This document shows, one piece after another, positions 1-62,221 of a stretch of DNA of 64,000 bases. A program made the translations under genes and the position numbers. Where the stretch lies: positions 50,299,885 to 50,363,884 of the forward strand of contig CAIIXF020000001.1 of assembly GCA_903813345.2 (NCBI GenBank), read 5' to 3'. Numbering within the stretch: position 1 is the stretch's first letter; every line of letters begins with the position of its first letter. The DNA is from Owenia fusiformis. Lineage: Eukaryota > Annelida > Polychaeta > Sabellida > Oweniidae. The notes beneath the pieces were generated by a model. It was not told the origin of the DNA, made no database searches, and saw only the letters and a list, made by a program, of their open reading frames with translations.

Positions 1-2723
1 CCTTAAATATTTTCAGATAATTTTACATTCATGGGCTTGCCCCATATGCCAACCAAGAAAGCACTGCGTAGCCAGAGAAGAAAAATGGTTGAAAGCCCAT
101 GATTTATTGTAGAATACTCAGAAACATTGCAGATGTGTTCAGAATAAATTCAGTTTGAGTCATTTTACATATGAGTTCAGTTCTCTTCCTGTTTGACTGC
201 ATCTTGATTTGGATGATGAGCGCACAACGGATGCAGTTGGCCACTACAAATTCAGGCGTGAAAATAAATGCAATGTTTACGCCTGTCTTTTACTTGATTA
301 AACACATTTTAATTTAATTTCACAATTGAACACTTTACACTTGAATAACTACAACACTTATAAAATATATATTTTCCATATTTTTCAACTTCCTGCACTC
401 AATGTCGATTTTAATTGATAAATACATTTTTATTGAGCAGCATATCAGTTATATTACTGTAAACCTCGCAGTATTGCGACCTTGTCCCCGCTAACTTCTC
501 AAATCTCAAAACAATAACAAAATTTACGAAACTTGTTCAAAAGACATAAATGTTTCTTGTTTTCTTCTGCTGCTCCTCTTATGAAACCTGTAACATATCG
601 AAAATGGGAGTTTAATAGTTGAGAAACTAGTACTTGAAATCGACAACTCCACGGAGTAGCAAATCTCAACGAACACTAAATTCCTGAATCTGTATGTCAC
701 AATATAATATTTACCATCTACTCCACACTTGATTAAAAAGACATACACTGGAAATATAGCAGAAGTTTCACTGGTTACTTTAAGCATTTGGGTGTCCATC
801 GAAGAGTTTCGAGTGCACAAATCATAAAGAAAATACAATATTTGAGAACGGACGGACAGAGGGCTTCACTATATCCCTACCAAACGTCGTTCGTTGGGAT
901 AATTAGTCATTATGATATCTACACACAATAAATAGTATAACAGTAATTTTTCATAAATAAGATAAATACAATAAATATTTAAAATAATTTATAAGTTAAT
1001 TTTTAAATACCTGTTAAATATATACATGTTTACTAATCTATTTCAACTATATTGCAAAATATTAATCATAATACCTATAAGACCAACTTTCCTTCCTTTA
1101 ATAGCATACTTAACCTTTTGAATACCAAGAGGCAAAAGTAACAAAATGTCAATATCAAATTGGCAATATCTAAAAAAAATCCAGTTTTCACTGTGTCTTA
1201 TTGGTCATTTTATTTTTACAAAATTAACCCTCTCATGTTGTAGAATAAAGGTAGTTGGAAAAACTGGCAAATTGCCCTGGTAATCAAAAGGTTAAGCTTT
1301 AAGGAATTAGAAGGAAAAGATAATATAAAATGTTAGATCTTTTCAAAAATTATGCCAACGTCTCCCTTAGTAGTCCCAATTCACTTTATTTTTTGAGGAA
1401 TGGACTCAAGATGATATTGTAGATTCAAGATTCAGAAATGTCCAAATTCGTTAGAATTTTAAAAAGGGACGTCCTGTTTTTTTTTCAATTCAATGTTTTG
1501 CCAGGTAACCTGGAACATTAAGGATTACCCTGAGCTAAAGTCAATATTATTTGTGTTCTTAAATTGAATGTCATGAATCACGAGAGCAAACGTTTTTAAA
1601 CTAAATCACAACTCATAATATATCCCTTCTAATACCTTTAATTTAAACATGTTTTTACATTTGATACTCAGCAGTAGTCCAACTGAGGAAGCAGTTTTTA
1701 CAGGACATAAATATCCTTTTAATAATACATTGCAGCATGAAAACATTTAATTGCCAAATGATCGAAACTGAATTTCAATTCATAACTTTAGTACTCAAAT
1801 TCATACCGATTTTACTTACTATTTTTGAATTAATTAAATTAGTCTAAATAACGGTATAATATATACTGAAATCTGAAGGGGAAAAGAGGAAAAGCCCTGG
1901 AGCCGGGCTTAAACTAAAAGAATAACAAGACAAGGTAAATTATTGATTTAGTATATAACTTTACACTAAACAACCAGCAATGTGATCTCTGACATTTTAA
2001 ATATAATTTCATTAAATTCATGGTAACGTAAAATACTGCAAATGTGTAAAATGTATGTAATTTACTTATTAGGTAGTGTGCTCACTTAAAGTCCCCGATT
2101 AATCGGGCTACGTATACCGCCGTGTTTACATTAGGGGATTAGAAGGGTTTATTTTTTATTTAGGTATGCAAGCTACGTATATCAATATTAGGCCTTCATT
2201 CATGTACTCGTGTGCATGTAATCAGCATGCCCTTCAATATTATGTAAACCAGGCTATTCAAGTATAATGTACACTATTTATGTGTGTACTACATACAATA
2301 CAATTCCCTGGGAAACAAAACACAAATACGTTTTATATGTTCAAAATGAGCCATTTGATTGATGCAAACACTAAATAGCTTCATAAATAACATCTACAAA
2401 GTATATCTAATTGTAATTTTCAATTTCAATGTTGAAACTTCCCTGGTTAAGATTATATGGGAAATCATCACGAGACGAAGATCGTTCGCCTTCCTGGCTT
2501 ACCTCTGAATCGTGTACCGGGCAATCTCTTTATATAGTTTAGCGAGAGTGGTGCGCCTGCGCAGTTTTAAACTTTGGCGCACACTTTAAATACAGAGATG
2601 CCATCATTTGCTGGCTCTAGGAATCATCTTTTAAAGCTCGAAGATGTTCATACTTGAGCGTAAATATTGACTTTGATAAATAGGTAATTCCAATGAGGGA
2701 ATGAGGTTAAACCAATGGAAGGA
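1..2723. other. AT-rich intergenic DNA, no gene recognised
   Basis: No open reading frame here resembles a protein I know. The longest (minus strand, 524-838, 104 codons) has biased composition and no neighbouring exon. Visible structure: a loose inverted repeat at 30-101 (CATGGGCTT and AAGCCCATG arms), which recurs in tighter form near 41441, and a perfect 14-bp palindrome CCCGATTAATCGGG at 2094-2107. The right end probably contains the 3' end of the oxidase transcript. Confidence 0.5.
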
Positions 2724-2729
2724 TTTATT
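2724..2729 (-). terminator. Candidate poly(A) signal of the oxidase gene
   Basis: The minus strand reads AATAAA about 240 bases after the oxidase stop codon at 2970-2972. I saw no earlier copy of this hexamer between the stop and this point. Placement fits an ordinary 3' UTR; cleavage itself cannot be seen. Confidence 0.45.
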
Positions 2730-2969
2730 GTAGTAGAAATACTGTAAATCTAGATATCATTGCGAATTAAATTATCTTGAATTGTAATTGATGCGCAAAA
2801 ATATATAGGCCTAGGTTTGTCAATATATTACTGGGATTTTAACAACTGCAATCACAAGGACACGTCCGATTTGATAATTCAGTTAGGAAAATTAGGAACG
2901 AATAAAAAATCTGCACAATAGCAAAATTTTCTAGATTAACATTAGTATTGTACAGATATTAATGTTAAC

Positions 2970-5900
2970 CTAATGTAGCATGCATAGTGCGCTAACCATG
3001 AAAATGACGTTGGAAAGTACCAACTGAACTGGTGAGGAGCTGGTGGTTGGACTTTCTCTATTGTAGTAGCCATCTGAGAACGTATCCACCGACATATCTG
3101 CTATCCCACCCTGTGCCCTGGAGTGGACACTTCGTCTACGTCTAATGATACTATTGTTCTCTATCCATTTATCTTCGTGCTGGTTGTAATGCTCATCTAA
3201 TAGCTCTTCCACTGAGTCTAAAGCCCCCTCCATCCACGCTTGCTTACCGCTGTAGCAACTTCCGACAATGTGCACGTTCTCATCTGCAAATGGCTTGATC
3301 ATTAACTTAGAGATGATTTCCCAATTGTAGCCAGCCCTCCAGGCGTAGAAGGCTGGGCCTTGGGGTCCACCGTGTTTCCAATAATGCATCACGCCTGTGT
3401 ATGGACGTGCTAAGTCTTCACGACGAAGTTGATGTACCTCTGCGAGCTGGTTTTGTGCCTCGGATAAAATCGTCTCGGATATGTTGTACTCACTAGTAAG
3501 CATGTTGTCAGCGAGAGGATTGACAGCCAGATGACTGTTCAACGTGGAGTCATCCCAGAATGAAGCCTGTGGCTGAACAGGGTACACCAACATCATTGAC
3601 TTCCTGTTCAGGTCTTGCACTATACCAGTCGAGGGTTTCTCTTGGCCCATGTATATCATCTGCCTGACGGGAAGCGTGGTGATGGATCTTCCTGTCGTAA
3701 TGCCTAGATTCTCCCACCATGGGTTCTCGTAGCCAAGGTACATTCGAAATGCTTCGATTCCGCGAACAGCGTTAAGTCCATTTTCGATAAAAACATTGCC
3801 GTGGAGGGGTTGCCAGTCGATGTCCATAAGAGCATCTCTGGGTAGAGCCAGGATGACACGCTTTGCACACACAGTGGCCTGTTCCTGGAAAACATGAAGG
3901 ATTTGTTTAGTTCAAACTTAGTACAAACTGAGAATTACATTAATCTATAGTTATGAAGCTGATCCCCGAGTAGATGACCACAGACAAAAAATGTAGAACA
4001 CGGACTACACAAGACTCACCCTGGTGTCTGATGTGATATAATTCCTGGTGGTTGTGATCTGGAAACTCAGTAGCTGGTTCTGCCCTCGTCCTTCTATTCG
4101 TACCAACTTATGGTTCATATGGACTTGATGTCTGAAAGTTTATTCATTCATAGTAAAATTGTGGTTTCAAATGGCATCTTTATCTTTAGTCTCTATTTGA
4201 ACTTAAAGGAGAATGTCGCAGAGAATCTCATTTAGAGTTTTACCTTTCTGGGCTACTATCTTCAAACTGATTCGCCATTGTCGTAGGGAGAGTGCTCATT
4301 CCGCCCTTGAGCGTTTTGAATCTCATCTCATCAAATACTCCTTGGGGAGACGCTGGCACAGCAAACGCAGCGTTCATGTGAGACAGATCAATTCCCATAG
4401 CGTCTGTAACGTATTCCAATGCTTCGTTTGAGCCACCATATTTATGCCAGATTCTGTCGTACCTAAAATGATTTAAATATGGTCTTGTTTAATATTTTAA
4501 ATATAGTCTTGTTTAATATTAATTCATAGTGATTCAAACTCATTTCAGTCAGTATAAGTAATATTGACAATTACCTTTGTCTAAATAAGTCAACGCCATC
4601 TTTATCTTCTTCATCAACTGGATTGAAATCAACACTTGAAGCAGGATTTGGGACACTGGCCTCATAGATCTTTCTACGCAGCTGGCTTGGAGCTTTCCCC
4701 AATTCATCTTGGTACATTTTATAAGGTACTTTAGAACTCCCTAGGTCGTTATATTTCATATGTGTCCCTCTGAGATACCAGATGTTGTTCTGAAGGTTGG
4801 ACTTATAATCACCTCTGTAGTCTTGAAAATCCATGATTGTCAAGTTGAGGGACGCTATGGCTTTGCTGACAAAAACGTGTCCCATTGTCCCAGCGTTGGT
4901 TTCGATCATGGGAATGAATCTCATCGCCCCTATCTCCGCCATTCTGTAGTCAATACCTGGAATATAAAAAAATAAGTACTTCAGATAGCGTCCATGATGC
5001 ATCGAGATAATAGAAATTACGGATAATGCTATAATAATCAGATTGACTAATTAGATTAGATGGAAGATGAACACCATAACGGATCAATGAAATAAAAAAT
5101 TGATGAAATTTATAAAAATTATCAGACAATTAGTTTCTTTGTGGGTTAGTTCATATTTTGGGGGTTATGTTTTATTTTGATTGGTTGTACTGGTACTTTA
5201 GATGTTTCTGTTATTTGCTTTGTCTCGCTCGGGGTCTCGCTATTGTCTCAACCCTTTAGTTCTTATTCCATTACTTTATAAAGTTAAAGGCTTAAGGGTT
5301 ATACCTGGTAGTTTTCGGCTGTATACACGACCTCCTATTCTGTTGGAATATTCGAATAAGTAAATGGACTGTTTGCTTTCCTTTAACTTCCAAGCTGCAT
5401 ATGCGCCACCTATTCCACCCCCTATAACGGCGACGTCTATCGGATTACCTGGAGATACAAATTAATTAAATGCAATCAAAAGAAGCATATTATTTGATAT
5501 TTCAAGACTTTTTGATTCATTTACGAGTTAGACTAGCTTCTAGTTAGAATTTCTTTGCTTTTCAGTGATTGATAATTGTTTGTTTTTATTTTGGATCAGA
5601 TAGGTTTAGTCTTATACCATGCAGAGTTTGTCAGAATGAAGTGCGTAATTAAAAGTAATAACAAGTACCTTAAAGGGAAAGGGCATGTCTGTAAGTTTTC
5701 ACTTCATAATTCTTTTAATTCAAAATCTAATTTGTACCATCAGTTTACTTGGACATTAATTTTCTTTTCTTAAATATGAAAACTTAAAATTCGCTCGTGT
5801 AATTAGTGAATTAATCTGCCTTTTGAAATTAAAAAAGGTGGGAGAATTTTAATTGTATCATATTGCTTACTATGTGGGCAAGCTATTCATGCTTTGCTAT

Positions 5901-6301
5901 TTTCAAAAAAAGTCTGTACATCTTGTAAAAAGTCCATTGTTGCTGAGATTAAAGATCATAAAAAAATATTTTAGATCTTGGCTATATTCCTTCCAGATAA
6001 ATGAAAAATAATTTGGTAATTTAGGATCAAAATTCCGGACAATACCATTCTATAGCAAGACTTACTGCAGTCTGTGTGTTGGGGAAATGCATCGGTGTAG
6101 CTGGACAGAGTGGTGCAGAATAAGGTACACAAGAACCAAACTGTAATTGAAAATTAAAAAATAACTGCAAAACATATATGGAACGAAAACTGCAAAACAA
6201 TTATTGGAACGAAAATATGAATCATTAAAGTGAAAAAAAAATACAAAAGTGTAACTATTTTATAAGTATTATTATTCACACTTACCTGGAATATTTGACA
6301 T
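2970..6301 (-). CDS. L-amino-acid oxidase-like flavoprotein, secreted or GPI-anchored (7 exons)
   Basis: Exons in transcript order: 6301-6286, 6140-6066, 5448-5305, 4956-4575, 4462-4244, 4131-4020, 3884-2970. All junctions are GT-AG and phases agree, giving 1863 nt and 620 residues. The ATG at 6301 opens a 16-nt coding exon. Together with exon 2 it encodes a hydrophobic signal peptide (about residues 1-22). Exon 3 carries the FAD Rossmann motif VIGGGIGGAY (38-47), the ribose-binding Glu at about 63 and GGRV (69-72). Exon 4 begins with AEIGAMRF, the motif typical of amino-acid and monoamine oxidases. GGMSTLP lies in exon 5, and the C-terminal flavin segment SGKQAWMEGAL ends near residue 538. 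Family enzymes oxidise L-amino acids to 2-oxo acids with release of ammonia and H2O2, often for defence; substrate here is unknown. After the enzyme domain come RRRRS (about 564-568) and a terminal hydrophobic stretch (603-619) like a GPI signal. A polyamine or other amine oxidase is the main alternative. Confidence 0.87.
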
Positions 6302-7459
6302 TTCAAAATTTCGAATACGTTTTTCTCTCTTGTACGTTTCAGTAGATTGACTCCTAATTGTGAGAAGAAAATTTCGTAATATTGTACTTTTCAGTCTGAT
6401 TTCTTATCTCTGCTTAAAGTAAAAAAAATATTTGTCCTCTTCTTTGAATGAAGACTGATTTGACACTCGTCGATTAATATAGTTGACTTTCAGGAAATGT
6501 GTCAAATGAGCTGAACAAAATGAGTTCAAGCTTAGCTTCACCGATTTCCCACATTCTTATGTCAGTCTGCTTATGTCGCGATGAGTATCGTTAAAGTATC
6601 GGTTCTATGTCCGTCATGGCGGACGGAGGATCTGTTTCTTTATTTTTACATAATTATTTATATTGAACAACCTGGTGATAAAATCTTACGACCCGAGCAT
6701 TGTATAGGTGTCAATTAATATTTCAAAATATGTCTTCCCAAAGTTCCCAAAGTGTAACGCACCGGCATAAATCAACGATGTTTTAAAACGCACCGCTTGA
6801 TTTCACGCCAAACAGGATACTCGAGATACAAGAGGAAGCTGCTGAAAATGACGATGCCGTTAACACACAAATAATAAGGAGTATAAGCTTGCAATCTTTT
6901 TCACCACCCAAACGTAAATGGAAAATATTTAAGCGGTGCATTTGTATGGGCGATTGGTCATACTGTACGTATAGGTTGGCGTTTCGATTTTATATGCAAG
7001 CTTAAACTTCCTAATATGGAGGTTAAGCTGCATGTTTTCAACAGAACAATTCTGCCCCCTCTCTTTATTTCTAGGGACCTAATTACAGCTATTTTTCTTT
7101 TACATTATACTCAGGTGGGCAAGTGAATATTACGTAGAGAAAACGTATCTCCAGAGAACCATAATTCTACACGTTCACGTATTGGGTGTCTTGGTTTATT
7201 TTTAAAATAGACTGTCTATGGAAAATTTAGCTTGCTATATAGGTACAAATAATAAATTATATATGGACTATCGAAATATTCGTCGAAATACACCATTTCC
7301 TAGCAAAATATATGTGTTGTTGTTTTAACATCTCGTTTGTAACACATCGAGCTTTTCCGCTTCAAATTAAGGTACATGCTCGCATAATCTCGGAATATAG
7401 TACAATGGTATGTGTAAAGTAAAGTTACATTACGTCTAAAAACAGGTAAAACTACTCAC

Positions 7460-7620
7460 ATCTAACAAATCCTTGTCGATGTCCCCCATTTTACTGACAA
7501 GCAGGGTGTTCATTTTGTCGCATGACGCATCGGAAGAGAATACCGGCGCGTTAACGTTGATCACTGTGTATATTGGAAGGTCAAGATAGCCTTCAAAGCG
7601 TTCAGTTCACGCATTATATA
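7460..7620 (-). promoter_or_regulatory. Possible TATA promoter and short first exon upstream of the oxidase
   Basis: On the minus strand a TATATAA (7614-7620) is followed by an ATG at 7513 that opens 18 codons (MNTLLVSKMGDIDKDLLD) ending exactly at a good donor, GAT|GTGAGT. This could be an alternative or untranslated first exon of the oxidase, whose coding start lies 1.2 kb downstream. Two earlier ATGs hit stops quickly, and no matching acceptor is certain, so this is a weak call. Confidence 0.25.
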
Positions 7621-8411
7621 ACAAATGACGTTAGTTCATGTTTTGATGCCCGTTTTGATGGTTTGTTAAATGTTTTGAATTAGATACTGTTGACAAAAAC
7701 AACAAAACATTTCTTGACTCTTTTACAAGGAAAAATCAGATTATATCATCATGTCAGAATTATGACTTAAATTTCTTTTCATCAAAACATGGCCGAAAAA
7801 TTAACTGACTCATCAGACAATGAACAAATATTATATAGCTGGTATTAGAGATATTGGGTTTTAGGATTGGAAATTGCTAGCATTTTTTACGATTTCCAAA
7901 CCAAAATGCTTCGTGAAAATAGCTCTTAACAAACAGAAGAACAATATATTTTCAAGAATTAAAAGAACAAAAACAGTTTTATGTTCCAATTCACGCCCGC
8001 TCCACAAGTTTAAACCAGAAATGAGGAAAAGCTAAACTTCCGACACGAGTTTGTTGAACCATACTTTCCTGTATAAAAGTATATTCATAACAAACAATGA
8101 CGGTATCAGGGTGACATGAACTTATTGTTCATTGCTATAGTAATAAGATTAAAGCCGTCACATTTGCTACGGCGACCGACCGTACTGGCTATCATTTCTG
8201 CATTTAGAATTTCTGTGATCGGATTCTTTACTTGGTTAATTGTAAAACTACAATTTCCATACGGCCTTAACATCATGACGCATGGTCAGCGTAGGACATT
8301 CCTACGGTGGGTGTCGTTTTTCTTGACACAAACCAAGGTAGGCGCAATGTGGTCGCAGGGGACCCATGACGGCGATCCTTAGGTTCGCACTCAAGGTCAA
8401 TTTTATAGGTT

Positions 8412-8814
8412 GTTGCAAGGGTTCCTACCTATGTATTTTTATCGGTGTAAGAGGACAAAGTACATGTAGTACTAAAAAGTGCTCCCTTGTCCGTTCTGCT
8501 CGACCAATAGTCGACCGTACAAAAAGTAAAAAATTACTGTAAAAAAGCGGTCTTTGGCGGGGTAAAGTGGACACCTGTTTTTAAATGGCCATAACAATTT
8601 TCATGGTGTTCAATAGTTATATGAAAATTGCAAATCTCACATTTAATTCCTAACGTTTCTCTGAAATAAGTGTCCCTTTCATAATCTGAACTGATTTCAA
8701 TCAAGAAAATATCAGTTCTTTTGCAAGGGTTCCTATGTATCTTTATCGGTGTAAGAGAAACATTTAAAGGGACAAAGTAGTACTAAAGAGTGCTCCCCTG
8801 TCCGTTCTGCTCGA
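8412..8814. repeat. Diverged direct repeat pair of about 93 bp
   Basis: 8412-8503 and 8721-8814 align end to end: both begin TTGCAAGGGTTCCTA, share TTTATCGGTGTAAGAG and end in CCGTTCTGCTCGA. The second copy carries a small insertion. About 217 bases of unrelated sequence separate them. No open frame spans either copy. This is probably part of a dispersed repeat. Confidence 0.7.
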
Positions 8815-11800
8815 TCTCACCATTTTGCAGTTTGATGCTCATCATATCTAGAAATCACTGCAAAAGGATCAAGGACGTGTACAGAAAGTAAAATCGTGGT
8901 TTCTGAAGGGCAATAAAGTAGAGACCAAAGCAAGATACCCCTTTCATTCGAATACGCTAATAAATGCTAGGATTTGCATTCATTTTCAAATGATAGAAAT
9001 CATAACTAATCTTCAGATTGATGATATACATATTTTCAACGTTGTATAGTGTTTTCTGTGAGAGCTATAGATAGTTATATGAGGCATATAATGTAAATTA
9101 TCAATCCATGTAATTTAAATCGGATGTTACTTCCTGAGTTCATTAAGTAAAATGTTTCAAACGAGACTATGAGCATTGGCCATGACTGTGCACTGATGCA
9201 TATGAATATGTTATGAAAAGTTTTGAAGGGTGCGGTGTTCTTTGTGTACTCATCGTACTAATCTCACATAATGCCTAGGTCACATTTGCTTCGATTCATC
9301 GGCCGGCGACCGGCCGGTAAAGTATTTTGATCAAAAATTGAAGGTGAAATCTCAAGTTTGAGGTCAGATAGACATATGATTTTTTAAAGTTTGGTCAATT
9401 TGAAGTAAGTTGAAATCAGTTTTGAACAAACTACTGAAGATATGACCATCTAAAATCACTTGCCATAGACCTTCAGGGACATTGGAAAAGAAGCCAAGAT
9501 ACATTTTCACCTTTATCATTTGTATTTTTGCTGGTTATGTAAATAAAAATTCAAATATAAAGAGGCTTTAACACGCAGTGTAATGTAAGGGAGTTAGGGT
9601 TGCAAAACTTATGGAGGGGAGTGTACGATAGATTTGGCATCATGCAATGTATTGTACCATGGGCTTCGAATGATCAGAACTCCATGGAGAAACCTCCGAA
9701 CTTTTAGTGGATTTCCCAAATTATTTTACATTTATATACAAAATGAAGTCTAAGGGTAAAATTAGCGTCCTATCATATTACAATCGATTCGTCATATTAA
9801 TATATGATAATACAAATGCATAGTGCCTTTCAAGTGATAAGCCCAAAAACGGCAATGTTATTGTACGTCCATTTTTAATTGCGTACTCTGGATGAAATGT
9901 TCTAAAAATTATCAAACTCCGCCAATGTTTTATCAATTTCTCATAAAATGAAAGATGAGTATCTACTCAAAATGTTAAAGTAGAGATTAATATGGTGCAA
10001 TCTTATTGTAATGATCCTGGCATCATTACTTTGTACTTTTATTTGTACATTCATTTTATTTCATATTGAGTTTGTGCATTATCTTTTAGATACTTGTTTC
10101 AAATGTTATTTTGTTTATAATGTGATTTTACAAGGACCATCAGTCCTAAAAGTGTTTTAAAGAGAAAGAAGCTTAGCCAATGAGAGTCAAGTTAGGGGGA
10201 TAAGTATTTAATGCATTGACCAATGGTGTTAGCTCTAGCTGATTGTTATATTTTGTGAAGTAAGTAATATTTTTAGGGTTAAGGACAGAATGTAGTTTTG
10301 AGGCTGGAATAGTGAGCGTGTGAGAAACATGGGAGAAAGGTCCTGGATTGCTAGAGTTGAATTTGAGACTGATAAGTGAATTGGGACAAACAAAGGAGAA
10401 ACCTAATGAATTGCTCGAGTTGGGAAATGAACTTGGAAAACCAGAATTATGGATGGATATTTTAGGATTATAAACAAGACTAGGCTATAATGTAGATTTC
10501 AGTCTGGTAACCATGGCTTACTTTTTGTTTCCAGTTTATAACTGAAATCTCATTGTCTCAGTTCCTTAAGTTCTCAGTCAACCTCGTGGTTTTGAGATCT
10601 CGGAACCTTGATGCATTTCGAGGGATAAGGGTGTTTCAGTTTAAACTCATTTTTTATACTTTCCAACTTTAGTCTTGAATATTCAAGTGAATTTCTGTCA
10701 GGCTCTGTAAGGAATATCCTCTGTTATTTGGCTCAGAGATCAGTGTGTATCAATGTATTTCCAATGAATTTCTGCTTTTTGAGCGTTCCATTATTTTAAG
10801 GTGTTCATGGTCATTGAAGTGTTGATTAGTTCAGGTCATGCATATATGTAGTGCAGAGAACTTTTGTCATGTAAGTTGAGTTAAATGTTGGGAATGAGAT
10901 AGTTAGTGAGATTGGTGAGATTCTTAATCAAGAGTAAGTTCAATAATAAGATTGTTCCTGTTGAGAGTATAACAGTTTCTTATTCGTTCGAACTTCGAGA
11001 CTCTGATTATGTAAATATTCCTCTGTAAATATACCATTTTATACAGTATATTCTATATATTCAGATTTATATCATTATTAAAATTATATAATCTTAATTT
11101 CTCTGTCTGTTGTTTTGCGTAAAGTGGTCAATTTGATCTAAGGTTGATTTTGAACAGATTGTTTCAACTTCTCTAAAGCCCATATATTTAAGGGGTCATA
11201 TCAAGCTCATTATTGCGATCTGTTGAGAATACTTAGGTGCAAGTTGTGTTTAAGTTTCAATTTCAATCATTTTATATTGCAATCACCCCCTTCCACAGTA
11301 AGCACTATTTTGGTCCAGTTTGTCATTTAAAGGCATCAGCACCTTCCAGTATTATATTATTCCAAATTTCCTTTAATGACCAAGCAAATAATTTGATTAA
11401 CTCAATTCAAGATCAAGTCAAAATTTAGTTTCATAATATTCCCGGCCCTAGCCACGCTACCACGTATTTGTTCAGAGAGAGGGCCCGGGTTTTATTACAT
11501 TATTGTCAATAAAATGTTTTAAAGTGTATTGATGCTTTTTTAGATGGAAAACACAAGCGCAAATGCACGAAAAAATTCCCCCAACTCATTCTATAAACAA
11601 CTCGGGGTCCCTTTACACACATCATTTTCTGTGACGGGAGGGCATCAAACAACGGGCCGGGCAAATTCAGTCACAAATATCAGGGGAAAATGGGTCCTTT
11701 CAAAATTTGGCATACTTTCCACGTCCATCTACACAAGTAGCTTTCTCTTGTGTTTGTCAAAGCGATTAAAATTTAATATGGACCTCTTCTAACAAAATAC

Positions 11801-11852
11801 TACAGTGCAAACTTAGAGGTGACATGCTGATCCGAAAAGTGCCAACCAAGAG

Positions 11853-11872
11853 CCCCCCCCCCCCCCCCCCCC
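11853..11872. repeat. Homopolymer run of 20 C
   Basis: Twenty consecutive C residues, about 30 bases before a putative DTWD1 promoter. The true length may differ, because such runs are error-prone in assembly. Confidence 0.9.
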
Positions 11873-11903
11873 TTGTGCCAACCTTTTGTTTACATTTTTG
11901 GTG

Positions 11904-11972
11904 TCACGTGACTGCCATGTGACCTTTTTTACCGGAAACAAAATGGCAGATTAACTTTTTCCACGCTATTAT
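11904..11972 (+). promoter_or_regulatory. Probable DTWD1 core promoter and non-coding first exon
   Basis: A cluster typical of TATA-less housekeeping promoters: palindromic GTCACGTGAC E-box (11904-11913), an ETS-type ACCGGAA (11932-11938) and a YY1-like AAAATGGC (11942-11949). A donor-like GTAAGTAG follows at about 11972. An acceptor-like ATTATAG at about 12946-12952 would join this leader to the exon carrying the DTWD1 ATG at 13017. The motifs are visible; the start site and the leader splice are inferred. A short upstream ATG-GCA-GAT-TAA sits in the proposed leader. Confidence 0.5.
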
Positions 11973-13016
11973 GTGTAAGTAGATCTCCTCTATTTTATTA
12001 ATATAAGAAACTTCCCACGCCCTAGGATTTTGTTAATATATATTATACAAATATAGTAAAATTTTGCGAACATTCTAAAAGGTTATTGATATTGATTGAG
12101 ACTTGCTTTATCAAACAACTGTTTTCTGAACACAATTTATTTTTTCAATAGCCTACACAGGGGCTGTGTTTCAATATTTTCCGTCAATTATCATGAAATT
12201 GTTGTGAATGATCAAGAAGAGAAACGTGATATTATTTGATTATGTACTGATTTGATTATGGACTTGTGTGGAGAACCATACTCTGTGGAAATGCTAATCT
12301 TCAACACACAGGGAGTTAGTCACCCCTCCCTCTTCATTAGAGAGAGCGAGGTGACTTACTCCCGTGACTGCGGAGGGAAGGTCTTTCACCACATAAACAA
12401 TTGACATGATTGGTTCTTGTCTCATGCTCTTGTCACATGATTGAAAGATTACGCGTCAAATCTAATAAACACACATGTGGTGAACCATATCATCAAAACT
12501 TTAACTCCTAAATCCTTCAGCGGATCTTTCTTATATTTCATGATTTGGGAATATTTTGACAAAATAATGATTGAGAAATTGTTTTTGAGAGCATAATTTC
12601 ACTTATAAACTTTCTCCATTTTTACTGCTGTTGATGAGCAGATATCATTGGTTTGTTATTCCATTAATGTGAGTGAGCAGTGAATAATAAAACAATTATT
12701 TAATTCTATTTTTGGTTAATAACTGTGACACTTTCACAAGATGATATTTCACTAGCCCTTCAGGGTATGTTGCACAGGTATTCACCTCAATAGAATTAAA
12801 TATTTCTATATTATTTTTTAGTCACATGTAGAAATGGACCAATCAGACAGTGACATACATGTAATAAATACAAATATGCACTGTACAGATGAGCTCAGTT
12901 TAATGGTCATATTTACTGTACTCACTAACATTGTACGTCTTTTGAATTATAGAGCACAGACCAAAAGTACAGATCAAAAACACTAGAGACATTGAAACAA
13001 GAAACAAAAGTTTGTC

Positions 13017-16000
13017 ATGGAAGAAAATCCATTCCCAGGTTTGAAGATATCAGACTCCGCTGGGCTTCACAGTGTGGAGGGACGATTGAAGTGTAAAAAA
13101 TGTGGACAGTCTAGAAAGTACTATTGCTACAGCTGTTGTATTCCACTAGAAGAGACAAAAGGAATGATACCAACTGTTCAGGTTCTCTTTGCCATTATCA
13201 ATTTAATATCACAAACTTGAGATAAAATTTATTAACTTATTTTTTTTCAAGCATTTATCGTAGACTTAGTAGTATTTTAGGTAAATAACATGCAGGAATA
13301 TAATGGATATCTGAGGTGAGGGGGATATATATACAGGGTGTCCAATAAATAAGGTGAAAGATATTGTAACTTTCTTAATATTGCACCAATCTTGATGAAA
13401 TTTTCAGAGTTTGTAGCCCAAACCTTTTTACCTTTATTCTGTGAATTCAAAGCGTCTTCTATTTGATTGGCCAGAGTTGTGGTTGCTATAGTAACTGAAA
13501 CAACAAAAAGGCGGGGCAAGTTTGTTTACGTCACAACTTTCTAAAACATATTTATTCTTTCTGATAGCTTTATTCATACTTATTCATGATCTGAGTTCAC
13601 ACACAGCTATGCTCACTAGTGAAACTATTAGGGCACTGGGGCTACCCCTACTTGCACACCCTCCATATTCCCCAGACCTTGCACCCAATGACTTTTACTT
13701 ATATGCAGAACTCAAGCGTGACTTTGGAAGCACTGATGAACTCAGATCGCATGTCTTAGCAAGACTTCAGAAAATGGGCAAGAATGGGTTTGAAAATGTG
13801 TTTAGAGAGTGGGTGAATAGGCATAAGAAGTGTATAGCTAGAGATGGAAATTATGTTAAATAGCTTATTTTCATAACAATGGGACTTTAGGACTGTTTTT
13901 TTATATTGTATTGGTGGTAGTAATAGACCTTGGAATATGAATAAAGCTATCAGTAAGAATAAATATGTTTTGGAAAGTTGTGACGTAAACAAACTTGCCC
14001 CGCCTTTTTGTTGTTTCGGTTGCTATAGCAACCACAACTCTGGCCAATCAAATAAAAGACGCTTTAAATTCACAGAATAAGGGTAAAAAGGTTTGGACTA
14101 CAAACTCTGAAAATTTCATCAAGATTGATGCAATATTAAGAAAGTTACAATATCTTTCACCTTATTTATTGGACACCCTGTATATATCCTACTTTATCAT
14201 CTGGTGTATCTTCCGCTCAGCAATCTCGGGAATTTCATTCAGTGCATTTTCGTGCAATTGATAAAAAAATTAATCTAATAAGTATATGATTAAGTACATT
14301 TATGTAGTTAATGTTCAGTTTTAGATTCAGGGTGTAACCCTCAAGAAATATTGTATTTCCCTCAGGATATACCCTGTATCCCAAACCTCCCATTTAATAA
14401 CCCTCTTATATGGTATAATCCACACTGCAATAAGGAACTCATTCTGATACTCATCACTTCTACTTTTAAGAGCATGATTTCAAATAAGGGATTGTCATGG
14501 TAAGCAATGTAAAGAAATGAAGTGATAAAGTCTTGCATCAAATGTTTGCCTTCTTCAATATCTACATGTATATGAGGGGCACATGCATGACTAATTATTG
14601 CATCTAAATACTTAGATGTCTAAGAGATCAATCTATAATCAGTGTACATTATAATTTTTAACTTACATTTCAGCTTCCAGTGAAGGTTGAAATTATAAAG
14701 CATAGGAATGAGATTGATGGCAAGAGTACAGCAGTTCACGCAGCAGTTGTTGCACCAGAACATTGCACCATACACACATATCCTTGTATACCTGACTATG
14801 ATAAATCAAAGGTAGGCACCAGAACGGCACTATACTGCTCCAGAACATTGCACCATGCACACATATCTTTGTATACCTGACTATGATAAATCAAAGGTAG
14901 GCACCAGAACAGCATTGCACCTGACACACATATCTTTGTATACCTCACTATGATAAATCAAAGGTAGGCACCAGAACAGCATTGCACCTGACACACATAT
15001 CTTTGTATACCTCACTATGATAAATCAAAGGTAGGCACCAGAACAGCATTGCACCATACACATATATCCTCGCATACCTGACTATGATAAATCAAAGGTA
15101 GGCACCAGAACAGCATTGCACCATACACACATGTATACCTGACTATGATAAATCTAAGGTAGGCACCAGTACAGCATTGCACCATACACACATATCCTTG
15201 TATACCTGACTATGATAAATCAAAGGTAGGCACCAGAACAGCATTGCACCATACACACATATCCTTGTATACCTGACTATGATAAATCAAAGGTAGGCAC
15301 CAGAACAGCATTACACCATACACACATATCCTTGTATACCTGACTATGATAAATCAAAGGTAGGCACCAGAACAGCATTGCACCATACACATATATCCTT
15401 GTATACCTGACTATGATAAATCAAAGGTAGGCACCAGAACAGCATTACACCATACACACATATCCTTGTATACCTGACTATGATAAATCAAAGGTAGGCA
15501 CCAGAACGGCACTATACTGCTCCAGAACGTGGCACCATGCACACATATCTTTGTATACCTGACTATGATAAATCAAAGGTAGGCACCAGAACAGCATTGC
15601 ACCTGACACACATATCTTTGTATACCTCACTATGATAAATCAAAGGTAGGCACCAGGACAGCATTGCACCATACACACATATCCTTGTATACCTGACTAT
15701 GATAAATCAAAGGGAGACACCAGAACATAACAGCACTATATTGCTCTAGAACATTGCACCATGCACATATAACCTTGTAACTTATGATATGACAAATAAT
15801 AGTGAGGGGATGATAACCTTAAAAACATAAGTGAATTCTAATCCTGTTCTGAGTTCCTCAAATGAGATTACAGTTTTGAAGCTGATATGCTATACACATG
15901 TAGATAAAGAATTAATTCTCTTATAAAGAGTGTAGACCATGATCCTTGGCAGATCAATATAACTTTGGATAATCTTTAAAATGATATAAGACACATACTA

Positions 16001-17411
16001 TGGAGACATTGGTATATGACACCCTGTAGATAAAGAATTATTTCTTTTATAAAAATAAGTGTCTGTAACAGATTGTAAAAATATTTTGAAACAATTTACA
16101 GTACAGAAAGCTTTTTTGTCCTTACATACAGAAAATATAATGAAAATGTATTTTTCCAGACACTTTTGGTGTTTCCCTGTAAGGAATCTCTAACATTTGA
16201 GCAACTTATAAAACAATGTGCACCTCTACATAAAGATGACAGCACCATCCAGGACACAGAAGCTAGCGATGAAATAAAGGAACCACCTTATAAAGTGATT
16301 AAAACAGATATCGCGACAGACAAGACCCAGTGTGCTGGTATAGGAGATAAGTACACCAGTCCATATGACACTGTTGTGTTCATTGATAGCACATGGAATC
16401 AGACCAAGAAGATCTACAATGATGAGAGGCTCAAAGGTATGTAAAGTGACTACCAAAAGGTAATGTCCCAACACGTTATCATAACACATCCTAGAACTGG
16501 TGGTGTTTTGTTTTTTGTTTTAGCCATAACTGGCATTTGACATCACCTAGTCATAATTGGAAATACAGTAATACTGTATGAACACCTGTGGAACCACAAA
16601 AATATGTTCACTGTAGGTAAGTGTTCACTACAGAGAGACACTCAGTTGAGTAGTTTAGAAGAGGTGCCACTAGACACAGGTGTTCACTAGAGAGAGGTGT
16701 TCACTAGGACAGGTTTTACTGTACTCTATGTTAAGATTATTTTTATGAAATTGAGGTTGTAAGATATTCAGTAAGAAAAGTATAAGTATTTCCATATTTA
16801 AAGTTCTATGCATGCAATTTTTACTGAATACTTCATGACAATGTTAACCTACAGTATGTATATTTCATTATTTAGATTCCTTTATAGGCTTATTTTAGTT
16901 TAATAAAAATTGGGTTTTCAACTTACATGTCCAAAAGTCATCAACATATGAAATTTGAACCAAAATCTGTCAAATGGTATCTGAGTTATCAAAGATTACA
17001 TTTTTAACAAAAGCTAGAGGCCGTTTTGAATTGAGTGGTCATATTGAAAATATTGCCACTATGTGTAACATGTATATCTAAATTGATGAAAAATTAATAA
17101 GAAAATCTGATCTACATGTATATATTTCAGGTTTACAATGTATAGAGTTAAAAAGTAGGGAAACTAAGTTTTGGCGACACCAAAAGGACAAACCACGTAC
17201 ATATTTAGCAACAATTGAGGCCATTTATTATTTCCTGCTGGAATATCACCAAAGCTTCGTGCCATCAGAATATATAGGACAGTATGACGATTTGTTATTT
17301 TTCTTTGTGTTCATGTACGGAAAGATCAAAGAGTTATATGATGGAGGGAAACAGCTCAAGGCTTACAGTTCACCAGAGACTGACAAAAATAAAGCTGAAG
17401 AAAAATGCTGA
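13017..17411 (+). CDS. DTWD1: DTWD1, tRNA-uridine aminocarboxypropyltransferase 1
   Basis: Four coding exons: 13017-13181, 14674-14811, 16160-16436 and 17131-17411, joined by GT-AG introns with phases 0, 0 and 1; 861 nt, 286 residues (human protein about 304). Exon 1 holds two CxxC-like pairs (Cys26, 29, 37, 40), a probable zinc site. Exon 2 has DGKSTAVHA and TYPCIPDY. Exon 3 has the family signature DSTW (177-180) within [13 protein letters not shown]. Exon 4 has FWRHQKDKP and TIEAIYYF. The human enzyme uses S-adenosylmethionine to put the 3-amino-3-carboxypropyl group on U20 of certain tRNAs, and the same role is expected here. Intron 1 contains a dead mariner. Intron 2 begins with a minisatellite made from the end of exon 2. 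The last codons (EEKC, stop) differ from the duplicate at 34756-35054 by a 13-bp length difference. Confidence 0.95.
13334..14180 (+). mobile_element. Internally deleted mariner transposon with long inverted repeats (DTWD1 intron 1)
   Basis: Flanked by TA on both sides, with inverted arms of about 240 bp beginning CAGGGTGTCCAATAAATAAG and only a few mismatches between arms. Between them lies the C-terminal part of a mariner transposase (about 13595-13863): [16 protein letters not shown] contains the third catalytic Asp. The first two catalytic residues and the DNA-binding domain are absent, so it cannot transpose by itself. It could move only if a full-length relative supplied transposase. 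Confidence 0.85.
14757..15722 (+). repeat. Minisatellite built from the DTWD1 exon 2 / intron 2 junction (about 14 units)
   Basis: The unit is mostly 67 bp, with 85-bp variants (twice) and one 61-bp variant. Each unit copies the last coding bases of exon 2 (ATACCTGACTATGATAAATC), the 5' splice site AAAG|GTAGGC and the start of the intron (ACCAGAACAGCATTGCACC). Intact GTAGGC donors begin at 14812 (the true one), 14897, 14964, 15031, 15098, 15159, 15226, 15293, 15360, 15427, 15494, 15579 and 15646. The last unit is mutated to GGGAGA at about 15711. Use of any downstream donor would include an in-frame stop (TGA at 14878-14880). Confidence 0.92.
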
Positions 17412-19810
17412 GGCATACATGTTACTGATTGATAAATATTAAATATTTAACATGTTAATAGAATAACTCCTTATTTATTTAGTTGTTCATGCCTCATAGG
17501 CATTTCAATAAGTTATTATACAAGAGAGATTTTGTCACAACTTGTCACAACTTATTTAGTGTGTGTATATTATGTCACCACCACACATGGTGACATATTG
17601 TTTTAGTCTCCAACTTTTTTGTGGACGGCGGTTAGTGTTCGGTGTTTGGCAGTAGGCGAATGTAACAAATCATGGCGTCTGTATGTTATGGCATGTGATG
17701 ATATTTTGTATCTATATGCCTTGTATTATTTCTTGTTGCCTTATTTTATTTGCACAAATGGGCATTGGTATGATCATTTGTTCATATACCATGCGTAGTC
17801 GCCACAGTTCAAGGATATCTTCCACCGCTTAAGGGAAGGTAACTGTGGTGCTCACGCATGATATATGAACAAATTATCATATTCCATAGTTCTCATGTCA
17901 TATGAGTCTGATTACGTCGACTGTAAAGTAGTTAAATTCGATGAAAACTAAAAATATCAAAACCGACACTTTCCGTCCACCATCTTTGATGCGAAAGTGA
18001 CGGCCGTTACCTTCCCTTGATACTGACCAATGAACACTCATTTATCTTTAAAAGTATTTACTCGTCATAGGTCACCGTTACTATTCCACCGAACTTTCCG
18101 TTAGAGCGATATAGAGAAGCTGTTCATCTGTCAATTTGTCTGTGCATTCATCTGTCTGTATCCATCCGCCTCTCAATCCACCCTATCCTTTCAGTGCAGT
18201 CATCAAATATTGTGAGACTGATTTTTGGTTGAAAAATGCATGATTGTAAGCAGTTGTACAGAGTGACACAAAAAATGACACCCACATTACATTGCATTTC
18301 TTGTTTGTCTATTAACATATTATGGACTAACAACATGAAAAATTATGTCCCATAAAATCCCTTGCTTGCCTTGAGGCTCATTCTGCAGTTCTGACTCTAA
18401 ATAGACGACACATTTTGTAAAGCTCATAAATGTGCATCTAGGTGAGTTAGTCATCTGAAACTTCTTGTGGAGTTGCAAAATGGAGAACAAACAGGGCAGA
18501 ATTTTCTCAAAGAAGTTATGAAACATTATGTGGGTGGATGTCTTTTTTGTATCTCGCGGTTTAAAAAAATATTTTTCCAAAATGGCCACGACTTCAAAAA
18601 ATGATGGGAATGGCACAAATAAAAAAGATACAATATCTGCATTCTATTCTGAAATACTTTCTCTTTGAGTATAATAAAGCTTCACTTTGAGAGGTCTCAG
18701 AATTAACGTAAACTTCCTTTTTCTTGATGCCAAATTTTCTGTTAACAATTCTGTTTTTGTAAGAATTTATATGTTATATGATCCCGGGAATATGATACTT
18801 GGATATACATTTACAACCTGCATTTTTTAAATTTCTGAGATTTTGGAGCAAATGTTACGTTGTCAATTTCCCCTTCACAACCTGTTTAATCATTCTGAAA
18901 AGTTATAAACAATATATTCATGATTAACTTGGATTTGATATCATTTTCAATGCGATTTTTGAGCAACCTTCAGTTTCAACCTCCAGAATTTTAAGTATGT
19001 TTTATTGCTTTCATTCACAACAAATCAGGAACATATTCTAAATGCTTCTTTGTGTCTAATGTAATGATGACCATGGGTTTTCTAGAAACTAGAAGACTTG
19101 TTTTGATGGAATATGAACTACATTGAAAGGCATATTGAAGCCTGATTAATTATAGAAATACGATACAATGGACCAATATGTGGTATCCTAAGATTTAATA
19201 TCCAGAAGAAAAAATTGAGGACATTATGGAATTGTTGACGCACATATTTCATGTAGTGAACAATTGGTCTCTTATTTTAAGCCTGATTAATTCCAATGAA
19301 ATATCCTTCAATCTGCTTACTGACGGTATTAATACACTTAGCATTTGCTTTACCTAAAGCTTCTGAGAAGATAACTTACTCTTCACCCCCTCTGAACTCA
19401 TCGAGTCAACCAGAGGACATTCTGACAACCATCTCACCTTTCTGACAGGCATCAGGCAACAAAAGTACACAGCATGCAAATGGCAATATTTTGAGAAAAT
19501 GTGAAATGGGACACTGTGCAATATACATCCATCAAATCTAAGGATGTGCTCAGAGTAATTTGGTATCTTAAAATGTATTTCTGAGCATACTTCTTATAGT
19601 TACACAAAATGGTCTTTGTTGATGAAATATTTCATATTTTAAATTTTTTATTCCTTTTGGTGTGACTGTATAACCTGCTCCGCCCTACCCAAACTCACCA
19701 ACTTGATTTTATTATAACATCAATATAGTTGTATCAGTCCACATGAAATTTTTTTAGAATAATCAAAATGTCTCTGGAACATTACTGAAAATTTCATGGA
19801 AAAATATCAA
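17412..19810. other. DTWD1 3' flank with dispersed repeats, no further gene seen
   Basis: An ATTAAA at 17438-17443 could serve as the DTWD1 poly(A) signal. A hairpin TATGTCACCA...TGGTGACATA sits at 17571-17596, the end of a repeat family also found at 50722 and 35195. A foldback of about 110 bp occupies 17772-17880, with arms GTTCATATACCATGCGTAG and its complement. The remainder matches 35055-36600 with indels. Confidence 0.55.
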
Positions 19811-20160
19811 TTATTGATAAAGTTAGAGCATATAGTGCATTACTTCTGGGACAACCCTCGTACATCTGCCTAAGACACCATACATAGCATTTTCTGCATT
19901 TCGTAATAATAAATTAACATTCTTGCGAAAATTCACATTATAAGAAAACCAGACTCCCAAATACTTGAATGAGTCTTCAATTTTGAGTTGTTCTCCATCA
20001 TACAAAAATCTAAATCTTTCTTTGTTTTTTTTCTTAGAAAATATTACAACATTGGTCTTTTTAGCATCAACGATACGTTTATTTTGCTTGTATCGACCAC
20101 TTTGTAAACCTTGCTTTGTTTCTGATAAGATAGAAGTCCATGATTTCTCATGGTGATCAG
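19811..20160 (-). mobile_element. LINE reverse transcriptase fragment
   Basis: Reading the minus strand, DAKKTNVVIF is followed by DSFKYLGVWFSYNVNF and a helix ending AENAMYGVLGRC. This is the usual order at the C-terminal end of non-LTR reverse transcriptases (KTK-x-x-VF then FKYLG). The frame is intact for about 60-100 codons only. It lies in DNA missing from the duplicate copy near 36620. Confidence 0.7.
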
Positions 20161-23639: not shown

Positions 23640-24800
23640 CTCAAAAGTTAAAGATGGCTTACATGACAGAAAATAAAAAGAAGATATATTTTTTGCTGAT
23701 TTTTTGTAACAAAATTATTTCAAGCCACTTGCCACTATTTGGACTGACTGAGAGACAGATGGACAAATCGATGTTAAGTAAAATGGCTGAAAAAACGGAT
23801 ATAATTTTTTGCCAATTATTTGTAACAAAATTATTTCATACAACTACTCTTTACAGTAACATGGCTTTTTGCAATGCAGGACACCTGAAATTATTTGTAA
23901 AGCTAGGAAGTGGGGCAAAATTGAATTTCACGAGACAAAAATGGCAACCATTTTTCAAATAGGCAAGCTTTTGAACCAGGAGTCATAGGGGAGTTTTTTG
24001 TATTGATGTTGAACAAAAATAACTTGAAATTGGAATCCTATCGACAGAGGTTTTAAGGCAAATGGTCCAAAAGAGGATTTCGCGAGACAGATGGATAAAT
24101 CAATGTTAACTAAAATGGCTGAAAATGAAAAAAAACTGATATAATATTTTGCCGATTTTTTGTAACAAAATTATTTCATACAACTACTCTTTACAGTGAC
24201 ATGGCTTTTTACAATGCAGGACAGCTGAAATTATTTGTAAAGCTAGGAAATGGGCCAAAAGTGAATTGAGCGAGACCAGAATGGCGACCATTTTGAAAAT
24301 AGGCGAGCTTTAGAACCAAGAGTCATAGGAGAGTTTGTTGTATTGATGTTGAACAAAATTAACTTAAAACGGGAATCCTATCGACAGAGGGTTTAAATTA
24401 AGGCAAATGGTCCAAAAGTGGATTTTGCGAGACAGATGGACAAATCAATGTTAACTAAAATGGCTGAAAATAAAAAAAATGGATAAAATTTTTTGCTGAT
24501 TTTTCGTAACAAAATTATTTCATACATCTACTCTTTACATTGACATGGATTTTTACAATTTAGGACACATGAAATTATTTGTAAAGCTAGGAAATGGGTC
24601 AAAAGTGAATTTCGCGAGACAAAAATGGCGGCCATTTTGAAAATAGGCGAGCTTTTGAGCCAAGAGTCATAGGGGAGTTTTCTGTATTGATGTTGAACAG
24701 AAATAACTTAAAACAGGAATCCTATCGACAGAGGTTTTAAAACGTGCCACTATTGTTGCCGGACGGACAGACAGACGGACGGACGGACAGACGGACAATT
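23640..24800. repeat. Three tandem units of about 340 bp with a terminal GGAC/AGAC microsatellite
   Basis: The phrase ACATGGCTTTTT recurs at about 23862 and 24202, with a diverged copy at about 24541. Each unit also shares TTTTTGTAACAAAATTATTT, AAATTATTTGTAAAGCTAGG and CCTATCGACAGAGG. The array ends with a GGAC/AGAC tetranucleotide run at 24760-24796. The open frame at 23654-23962 is only the first unit read through. Probably a repetitive transposable element. Confidence 0.8.
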
Positions 24801-29160: not shown

Positions 29161-29218
29161 CATGACCTAACTTTACAGCAAAAGCCTCACTGCACAACGT
29201 GCGCCTAAAACGATAAAA

Positions 29219-30880
29219 ATGGCAATGAAAATATTATTGTTGTGGACAGTTACATTGGCAATACTCTATCAGAAACTTAATGCGGAGTCAGAATTTACTC
29301 AGCTTAACCACACTAATGGTACTAATCCTAGCAGTAATCAGAGTAACGGTTCTCAATTTAACAGTACTCAAACTGGCAGTACTGTAATTAATGTTACTCA
29401 AATTAACAATTATCAAGAAGATGATATCGAGGACACTGGTAGATGTGGTTTACCTATTGATATGTATAAGAACTGTCCTGCGAATACATGCGGTGGGAGA
29501 TGTGGAGATAGGGCAAATTACACCAAAAGTGGTAGTTTATGCTCTTGTGACAATGCTTGCACTATTTATGGAGACTGTTGCAGGGACTACAAGTTGAAAT
29601 GTGGCAATTATAGTCAAGATGAGTTTGATCGCGTGAGATCGACTGATTTTACGTGCAAGAAGCATGCTCCCGATCAGTATATCTTTATGAAAGAAACCTG
29701 TAAGCCGAGCTACAGCGACGAATCCGTCATCAGAAAGTGTTACACGAATTCTGGGTTTGAAGGTATGGTACCAGTCTCAGATCCTAACACTGAGATTGTA
29801 TATTCCAATTACTTCTGTGCCCTGTGTAATTATGCTAGAGATATCGTGCCTTGGAAGTTGACCGTCATGTGTAAAAAAGCTGGTGGTTTGTCTCCAGGAA
29901 ATGAAATTAGATGGAACGAACTCATATTATTATTACATAACTCTCGTATTGTTGAGAGGAGATGCGATCTATACACTCAACCACAAAAAGCCCTTGAAAG
30001 TGCATCTTCACAAAAATGCGTTCCTATCAATTCCAGATGTTCTTTGGAATGTAGAGATCCTAACATCATAGAGCTCTGTAAGGAGGGAGAATATGACCCG
30101 CAATATGGCCGATTTGAAATTGTTCAAAACAAGTATTGTTTACAATGTCAAAATCATGCAGCGCTAGAGATATGTCCAGCTGTAGAAGTGAGGACTAACC
30201 AGCAACCCATGTATGGATTCTCCTACTCTTTACTGTTAAATGTAGTAGGAGAGTCTGTACTCAATTTCAAACTTCAATCGGGATTTGGTATAAACAAGAT
30301 CAACACAGAAGCAAAGGTTGAACATGATGGTGAAGTGCGTTTGACCGCATGCGGCGCACCACTTGTTCTACTTAATGAAAAATGCGAGCTGGATGGAATA
30401 TACATTGCCATTTCATGCAACTATGACAGAAATTCATCAAATGTCACGTATATTGCGCTAACTCAAGACCAAAGAATTAGGATAAGTGAAAAAGTCAGAG
30501 AAATATATGACGCTATCGGGCAGGTTGTTTTACAATACTTTTCAAGTAAAATGAATGGCGGCATAAGATTAATAGCGAAATGGTATGTTCATATGCCTTA
30601 TGACACTGATGTCTGGAGATCAGTGCTTTTAGAATATGAGAAACCCTTGGTAGATTCTCTGCGAATAATCCTCCCTGGTATAGAGTTGAATGAATGCATC
30701 TATACCAAGGCTGGGAGTACGGTTATTCCGAGAAAAACAATCGATATATCGAGCGAAAATAGTACAGCTGTATCGAATCACACGAAGACGATTAAAAGTG
30801 GCACCTCTACAGTTGCAAACAAGTCGCCACCAGAATTTATAATTTTGATATTGACAATATGCGCTGCATGTGCCTTATAA
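29219..30880 (+). CDS. Secreted or GPI-anchored somatomedin-B domain protein, copy 1 (SMB1)
   Basis: Single open frame of 553 residues, no intron. Residues 1-22 form a signal peptide. Residues 28-65 are rich in Asn, Ser, Thr and Gln with many N-glycosylation sequons. A somatomedin-B domain at about 86-128 has the expected eight cysteines (91, 95, 108, 110, 114, 120, 121, 128) and the core CSCDNAC...DCC. A second cysteine-rich ectodomain follows (about 145-320; CYTNSGF, then YSNYFCALCN), of a type I associate with extracellular regions of some invertebrate class-B-like receptors. Here no seven-helix region follows. The protein ends in a hydrophobic tail (536-553, FIILILTICAACAL) like a GPI signal. 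Function unknown; ligand binding at the cell surface is inference. It is paired with the copy at 45135. Confidence 0.85.
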   Translation: MAMKILLLWTVTLAILYQKLNAESEFTQLNHTNGTNPSSNQSNGSQFNSTQTGSTVINVTQINNYQEDDIEDTGRCGLPIDMYKNCPANTCGGRCGDRANYTKSGSLCSCDNACTIYGDCCRDYKLKCGNYSQDEFDRVRSTDFTCKKHAPDQYIFMKETCKPSYSDESVIRKCYTNSGFEGMVPVSDPNTEIVYSNYFCALCNYARDIVPWKLTVMCKKAGGLSPGNEIRWNELILLLHNSRIVERRCDLYTQPQKALESASSQKCVPINSRCSLECRDPNIIELCKEGEYDPQYGRFEIVQNKYCLQCQNHAALEICPAVEVRTNQQPMYGFSYSLLLNVVGESVLNFKLQSGFGINKINTEAKVEHDGEVRLTACGAPLVLLNEKCELDGIYIAISCNYDRNSSNVTYIALTQDQRIRISEKVREIYDAIGQVVLQYFSSKMNGGIRLIAKWYVHMPYDTDVWRSVLLEYEKPLVDSLRIILPGIELNECIYTKAGSTVIPRKTIDISSENSTAVSNHTKTIKSGTSTVANKSPPEFIILILTICAACAL

Positions 30881-45076: not shown

Positions 45077-45134
45077 CATGACCTAACTTAACAGCAAAAG
45101 CCTCACTGCACAACGTGCGCCTAAAACGATAAAA

Positions 45135-61285: not shown

Positions 61286-62221
61286 CTGGAAACACATAAA
61301 TAAAAAAATAAATAGAAAAGTTCAAAAAAGTGAAACTCATAATATTATATATAACGTTGTTCCAAATAAAACTACCATGGGAACTTCACTTGAAAGAAGA
61401 CATATTGTTTTAAAAAAACCACTGTATTTATGGCCAGAAAGTACCCATGGTGAAAGATATGACCGTCTAAAATCACTTGCCATACTGCTCATCGACCTTT
61501 CTTGGAAAAATGAAACGTTTCTTACATCAGGGAACAAAAAACAACCAATGGATCATAGAGTCGATCTAGTGCATCATTATTAAATATTATGGATATCGCA
61601 TCACATTTACTTGAAAGGGTGAAAGCTGAAAACAATGAATAAAGACTTTGACATTTTCAGATTAGTTCAGATTCCTTTGTGAAAATGATATTGGGAATGT
61701 TGTTTCTCGTTAATCTCTAATAGAGGTATATTTCCTCCTTTCGCTAAATGAAAAGAAAACAAGAAAACTCCCAGGACTTTCAGAGTCTCGTGCATTATTG
61801 ATGGCATGTAAATTGTAGATGGCCCATTAGGATAAGAGCAAATTATCTAAAAAAAACACACACATGACTATTCATTCATTAACTAATGGAATCAATAACA
61901 CAGATCACCTCACTTCCATTATAATGTACTGTAAAATTGATGAGGTTTTTTTCAACAAAAAGTCCAAGAGCAGCAAAACATTGCATACTTTAACACCTCT
62001 CTTTGGCAGACAACTTGAAATGTGAACACTTTCTTGGTCCCATCTAAGATTTCCATCATTGCTATCAGAGCAGTATTTGAGTTATTGCAAAGACAGAGAA
62101 CAGAAGGACAAAAAGCTTATTAGAATTACTCAGATGCGAGTAGGTAGTTACCAGTTTCGCCACCAGGTGGCTGATTCGGGGGAATTAACATGACAGGGTA
62201 TTACAAAATTCGCATATTAAA

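Follow-up and report, generated by a model that had tools for sequence, protein, structure and literature searches.

In the annelid Owenia fusiformis, a gene that we take to be DTWD1 runs at one of its exon/intron junctions into a tandem array, each unit of which repeats the end of the exon together with its 5′ splice site (donor). This raises the question of which of these donors is used, and whether the array acts on the gene or has no selected function. We analysed the locus within a window of 64,000 nucleotides (contig CAIIXF020000001.1 of assembly GCA_903813345.2, positions 50,299,885 to 50,363,884); all coordinates are those of this window, and a slash in a motif marks the exon/intron border. 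The gene model consists of four coding exons, and exon numbers refer to these, 'exon 2' being the second coding exon:

13017–13181 (+): DTWD1 coding exon 1, with the start codon and the CxxC...CxxC part; open frame joining exon 2 in phase
14674–14811 (+): DTWD1 coding exon 2, 138 nt, acceptor TTTCAG/CT; inside the Pfam DTW match (residues 35–258)
16160–16436 (+): DTWD1 coding exon 3, 277 nt, acceptor TTTTTCCAG/AC, donor AAG/GTATGT
34756–35054 (+): DTWD1 coding exon 4, containing the stop codon; the preceding intron 3 is 18.3 kb long

The four exons join in one open frame that encodes a protein of 292 residues. This protein matches the Pfam DTW profile (PF03942) from position 2 to 193 of 195 (E 2.7e-32, 112.6 bits) and thus harbours the full-length domain of a DTW-domain tRNA aminocarboxypropyltransferase. 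Its naming as DTWD1 rather than DTWD2 is our assumption, based on the human sequence. The acceptor at 16160, which had been proposed in the initial annotation, is indeed the one used by the 292-aa open frame. Since all four exons are open and together encode a DTW domain at this E-value, the gene, if in use, must be spliced productively. The donor of exon 1, CAG/GTTCTC, is low on our approximate consensus score (top 44% of GTs).

Other open reading frames (ORFs) were observed within the DTWD1 introns and elsewhere in the window. In intron 1, the stretch 13495–13863 (+) resembles a fragment of a mariner-type transposase, and its Pfam matches all fell below the cut-off (PRORP 0.0021, DDE_3 0.014, DUF7083 0.097). 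A long ORF within intron 3 (29171–30880, +; 569 aa stop to stop) looks similar, as judged without alignment, to one at 45087–46772 (+; 561 aa), and a Somatomedin B domain is found in both (E 6.2e-07 and 4.7e-07, respectively). On the reverse strand, ORFs at 48253–61344 resemble exons of a large HECT ubiquitin ligase, presumably UBR5; one of the three ORFs tested matched Pfam HECT (48253–48657, 5e-24) and the other two (52582–52914 and 53244–55064) gave no match. ORF 2970–3911 (−) is similar to L-amino-acid oxidases and FAD amine oxidases (best PDB match 8jt7_A, 7.2e-35) and had no Pfam match at 0.001. A search against Rfam at gathering thresholds returned no match in the 64-kb window.

The array is located at 14751–15720 (+). 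By unit parse and alignment, with the units cut at the donor, it contains 14 head-to-tail units. Each repeats the end of exon 2 and its donor AAG/GTAGGC, which is found in 13 of the 14 units, confirming that the donor at the DTWD1 exon/intron junction has been multiplied as initially described. The first intron bases of donors 1–13 are 14812, 14897, 14964, 15031, 15098, 15159, 15226, 15293, 15360, 15427, 15494, 15579 and 15646. The donor-to-donor spacings are, in order, 85, 67, 67, 67, 61, 67, 67, 67, 67, 67, 85, 67 and 67 bp, so that 67 bp occurs ten times, 85 bp twice and 61 bp once. With units within about 10–100 bp, the array is a minisatellite. Unit 1 is the last ~61 nt of exon 2, and the remaining elements are as follows:

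14751–14835 (+): first 85-bp copy, 61 nt of exon 2 and 24 nt of intron 2 (TRF, period 85)
14812–15712 (+): array units 2–14 in intron 2, with a GT donor ending units 2–13 (parse and alignment)
15494–15645 (+): units 12–13, a block copy of units 2–3 (14812–14963), with 150 of 152 bases identical
15710–15718 (+): broken donor of unit 14, AAG/GGAGAC (GT to GG; intron side from 15713)
15719–15800 (+), end approximate: decayed 15th unit without a donor, 69–77% identical to the others

The longest TRF rows across the array scored 1157–1432, and the top score in 20 dinucleotide shuffles of 10001–20000 was 62. The period-67 row comprises 10.0 copies with 94% matches (14846–15511), and the period-85 row spans 14751–14914, likewise with 94% matches. 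The array had been placed at 14757–15722 in the initial annotation, and it is present there, but it starts near 14751 by TRF and fades near 15800 through the 15th unit. The donor is lost in both of the most distal units (14 and 15). Similarly, the string AAAG/GTAGGC had been assigned to 13 units; this is correct for AAG/GTAGGC, but the ten-base AAAGGTAGGC occurs only 12 times in the array, because unit 6 reads TAAG. Outside the array, AAGGTAGGC has a single occurrence in the 64-kb window, at 8335 (+). An exact search with the 22-base junction string yielded 0 matches in viral_contigs and 0 in genome_contigs, as expected for an animal gene. Two further tandem repeats were observed in the window by TRF. 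One is a second large array at 23752–24741 (344 bp x 2.9), with a short CGGA/CAGA repeat after it at 24760–24796. The other, a 133-bp unit at 43250–43503 (x 1.9), was duplicated recently, judging from its 99% matches.

Assemblies often misjudge the size of tandem arrays, and either the count of units or the block copy could accordingly be unreal. We consider such an artefact very unlikely here: the units differ in diagnostic bases and in length (61, 67 and 85 bp), and the distal end holds a decayed unit, which argues against simple stutter.

From the arrangement of the units we infer an order of events. An 85-bp tandem duplication of the exon-2/intron-2 junction (61 nt of exon, 24 nt of intron) would have founded the minisatellite, an 18-bp deletion would have given rise to the 67-bp unit, this unit would have been amplified, and block copying would have taken place between units 2–3 and 12–13. 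The long units are 2, 12 and 15, and unit 2, once a single base is set to that of unit 15 and one stretch of 18 bp is deleted, gives exactly the start of the 67-bp form. Four pairs of units are identical (units 3, 4 and 13 are alike, as are units 9 and 11). Minisatellites commonly show such a mosaic of duplication and conversion. A ten-base direct repeat, GCACCAGAAC, occurs at 14752, within the exon, and again at 14816, within the intron, and may have helped the array to form. Because the exon part of unit 1 is coding and lies inside the DTW match, the exon is presumably the original from which the array was copied. The earlier proposal that the array grew from the exon/intron junction is supported in that the units repeat the DTWD1 junction, from which they would have arisen.

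To which protein each donor would lead was read from the predicted frames. Donor 1 gives the open frame of 292 aa with the DTW domain and is the sole productive one among the 13 GT donors. All 12 later donors lead to an in-frame stop after 123 codons:

14878–14880 (+): TGA common to transcripts from donors 2–13 (predicted translation)

The stop is the same for all later donors because it lies in unit 2, which all of them retain, and it precedes the last exon junction by 293–1042 nt across donors 2–13. As nonsense-mediated decay (NMD) acts on stops farther than 50–55 nt before the last junction, these transcripts are expected to be NMD targets and would be degraded. The claim that any later donor adds an in-frame stop is therefore true for all 12, and the idea that went with it, of decoy donors or an NMD switch, is a fair hypothesis as regards the single productive donor and the 12 that stop early. 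Working decoys would draw a substantial share of the transcripts to donors 2–13 and to destruction, so that DTWD1 would be lowered, possibly by a share that rises with unit number. The common premature stop speaks for such decoys, as does the fact that the 12 extra donors match the true donor at every position from −3 to +8.

In addition to being identical over these positions, the 13 array donors reach similar scores that place them among the top 1.3% of 3490 plus-strand GTs (approximate matrix score 4.46), with a predicted U1 pairing of −9.2 kcal/mol. The donor of exon 3 reaches a matrix score of 5.78 versus 4.46 and a U1 pairing of −8.4 versus −9.2 kcal/mol, and the donor of exon 1 lies far below the array donors by matrix. 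Both splice-site matrices, as well as the U1 5′ end used for the pairing, are approximations; they serve as a rough guide, since the exon 1 donor lies only in the top 44% and the accepted exon-3 acceptor at 16160 (2.77) is outscored by an AG located 28 nt farther upstream, at 16132 (3.16). Use of this AG would shift the frame. From the donor outward, units 2–13 match unit 1 free of mismatches over 3–51 nt upstream and 11–35 nt downstream. Folding of the RNA from 14674 to 15720 gave a minimum of −181.6 kcal/mol, a value that is uninformative by itself.

The long units also contain acceptor-like sites, one in unit 12 (exon start 15526) and one in unit 2:

14842–14843 (+): acceptor-like AG in the 85-bp unit 2 (exon start 14844; approximate acceptor score 1.01)

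Both score 1.01 (top 8.7% of the window AGs) and slightly exceed the true exon-2 acceptor at 0.81 on the approximate matrix, as would fit array units that act as internal splice units, either through an 85-bp-unit acceptor and the next donor (15526–15578) or through recursive splicing at AAAG/GT. Such a role is nevertheless highly improbable. As an acceptor, AAAG/G is only at the median of the window AGs (top 51.7% by the approximate matrix, three units tested), which argues against a recursive splice site. Splicing from donor 1 to 14844 would leave an intron of 32 nt, and the predicted 53-nt cassette 15526–15578, although possible by score, would bring a stop at codon 130.

Next to the decoys, a U1 snRNP sponge had been suggested. 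The array offers 13 potential U1 sites within 0.9 kb. Moreover, intron 3 downstream harbours AATAAA 23 times and ATTAAA 12 times, and intron 1 upstream AATAAA four times, which would suit a U1 guard in cis against premature polyadenylation. However, the nuclear pool of U1 amounts to roughly a million, against which 13 sites in one gene are trivial, and we reject the sponge. With regard to the guard, intron 2 contains no AATAAA or ATTAAA in its 1348 nt, and the array is separated from intron 3 by exon 3, which has a donor itself. Either U1 role, in trans or in cis, is extremely improbable.

If the donors were kept by selection, they might be unusually conserved among the units. The comparison used the 67 alignment columns in which 12 or more of the 14 units have a letter, and these gave 59 windows of nine columns. 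The nine donor columns contain 2 deviating cells in units 1–14, both in unit 14, and 19 of the 59 windows, the donor's own included, have two or fewer (median 4). Unusual conservation of the donor was thus not found among the 59 windows, in a test of little power (32 deviating cells in 924). As the donor columns vary like many other windows, their intactness needs no selection. This counts against working decoys, and by this weak test the decoy set or NMD switch of the initial annotation, insofar as selection would maintain it, is unsupported.

The closest measured precedent that we found is the VNTR in intron 18 of human ABCA7. According to the available part of its description (PMC5954066), this array is built of 25-bp units and opens with the two bases of the exon-18 donor, with 23.7 copies in the reference and alleles of 298 to 10,678 bp; its length is tied to Alzheimer's disease risk. 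Use of the next-unit donor keeps 25 bp, shifts the frame and creates an NMD target. In cell lines, it accounted for 2 ± 1% of isoforms at steady state, independent of array length, and cycloheximide substantially raised the stop-bearing transcripts. Longer arrays came with much more skipping of the downstream exon, and a section heading associates VNTR length with decreased ABCA7 expression (PMC5954066). In DTWD1, the downstream exon 3 has 277 nt, and its skipping would shift the frame. Like this VNTR, the DTWD1 array is a minisatellite set against an exon and takes in the exon's own donor, in 13 of 14 units. In contrast to the 25-bp unit that starts from the GT, as described in that part of the paper, the 67-bp DTWD1 unit includes ~50 nt of coding exon.

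This precedent bears on the decoys in both directions. The rise of the counterpart transcripts when decay is blocked, the lower expression of longer arrays in the heading and the exon context within the DTWD1 units, unlike the ABCA7 unit as described, favour them, whereas the retention of one ABCA7 unit was independent of array length (PMC5954066, available part). In DTWD1, moreover, exon 2 would lengthen from 138 nt with donor 1 to 223–972 nt with donors 2–13. We therefore regard working decoys as unlikely. As each unit supplies a full exon tail and donor, the array could also be read as a heritable dial, in which allele length would set the share of DTWD1 sent to decay and hence the amount of a tRNA-modifying enzyme; this is quite unlikely. 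On the evidence of ABCA7, arrays of this kind need not be harmless.

We consider it probable that the array is a neutral minisatellite founded on the junction, with donor 1 mostly used, a modest leak from the later donors into decay and no selected function. Transcripts from donors 2–13 would stop at 14878 and be degraded. Donor 1 would be preferred because only this donor gives a short exon with the upstream acceptor. The leak could exceed that in ABCA7, because the later donors are alike and strong and carry 3–51 nt of identical exon context, whereas the ABCA7 unit starts at the GT. Among equal donors, the intron-proximal one reportedly wins in vitro, an outcome ascribed to Eperon et al. in 1993 and opposite to the preference for donor 1 that we predict here. 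Binding of SRSF1 is able to shift the choice between competing donors, according to the available part of PMC5585400.

Repeats at exon/intron borders have also been described in other genes. In the accessible portion of a study of human segmental-duplication genes, internal tandem repeats occur at exon-intron boundaries, and cryptic splice sites or new introns were invoked for some (PMC2812944). Like the DTWD1 array, these gene-modifying repeats straddle the borders and accompany alternative splicing, but they average 30-bp units x 4. In fission yeast, a 24-bp AGGT segment underwent multiple duplication, as retold in part in PMC4974935. The Rogers model of intron gain, as given there, resembles the DTWD1 array in its tandem copies of an exonic segment with AG/GT. 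However, both ends of the new intron derive from copies in that model (PMC4974935), whereas the 292-aa frame uses the acceptor at 16160, outside the array, which argues against intron gain by AGGT tandem duplication.

A literature search found nothing joining DTWD1 with repeats. A paper by Zhuo et al. is said, by its title, to concern tandem arrays that supply splice signals. The arrangement of the DTWD1 array belongs to a known kind, and it is set apart by its long unit, which takes in ~50 nt of coding exon, and by the 13 identical donors. To our knowledge, it is the second VNTR, besides that of ABCA7, that has absorbed the exon's own donor.

The effects of position and of local sequence on donor choice are usually studied with engineered minigenes. 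In DTWD1, 13 donors that are identical from −3 to +8 lie in one transcript, with exon lengths of 138–972 nt, so that position can be separated from local sequence. The conflict between the predicted use of donor 1 and the intron-proximal outcome in vitro makes this locus useful, and the array is a natural test of choice among equal splice sites.
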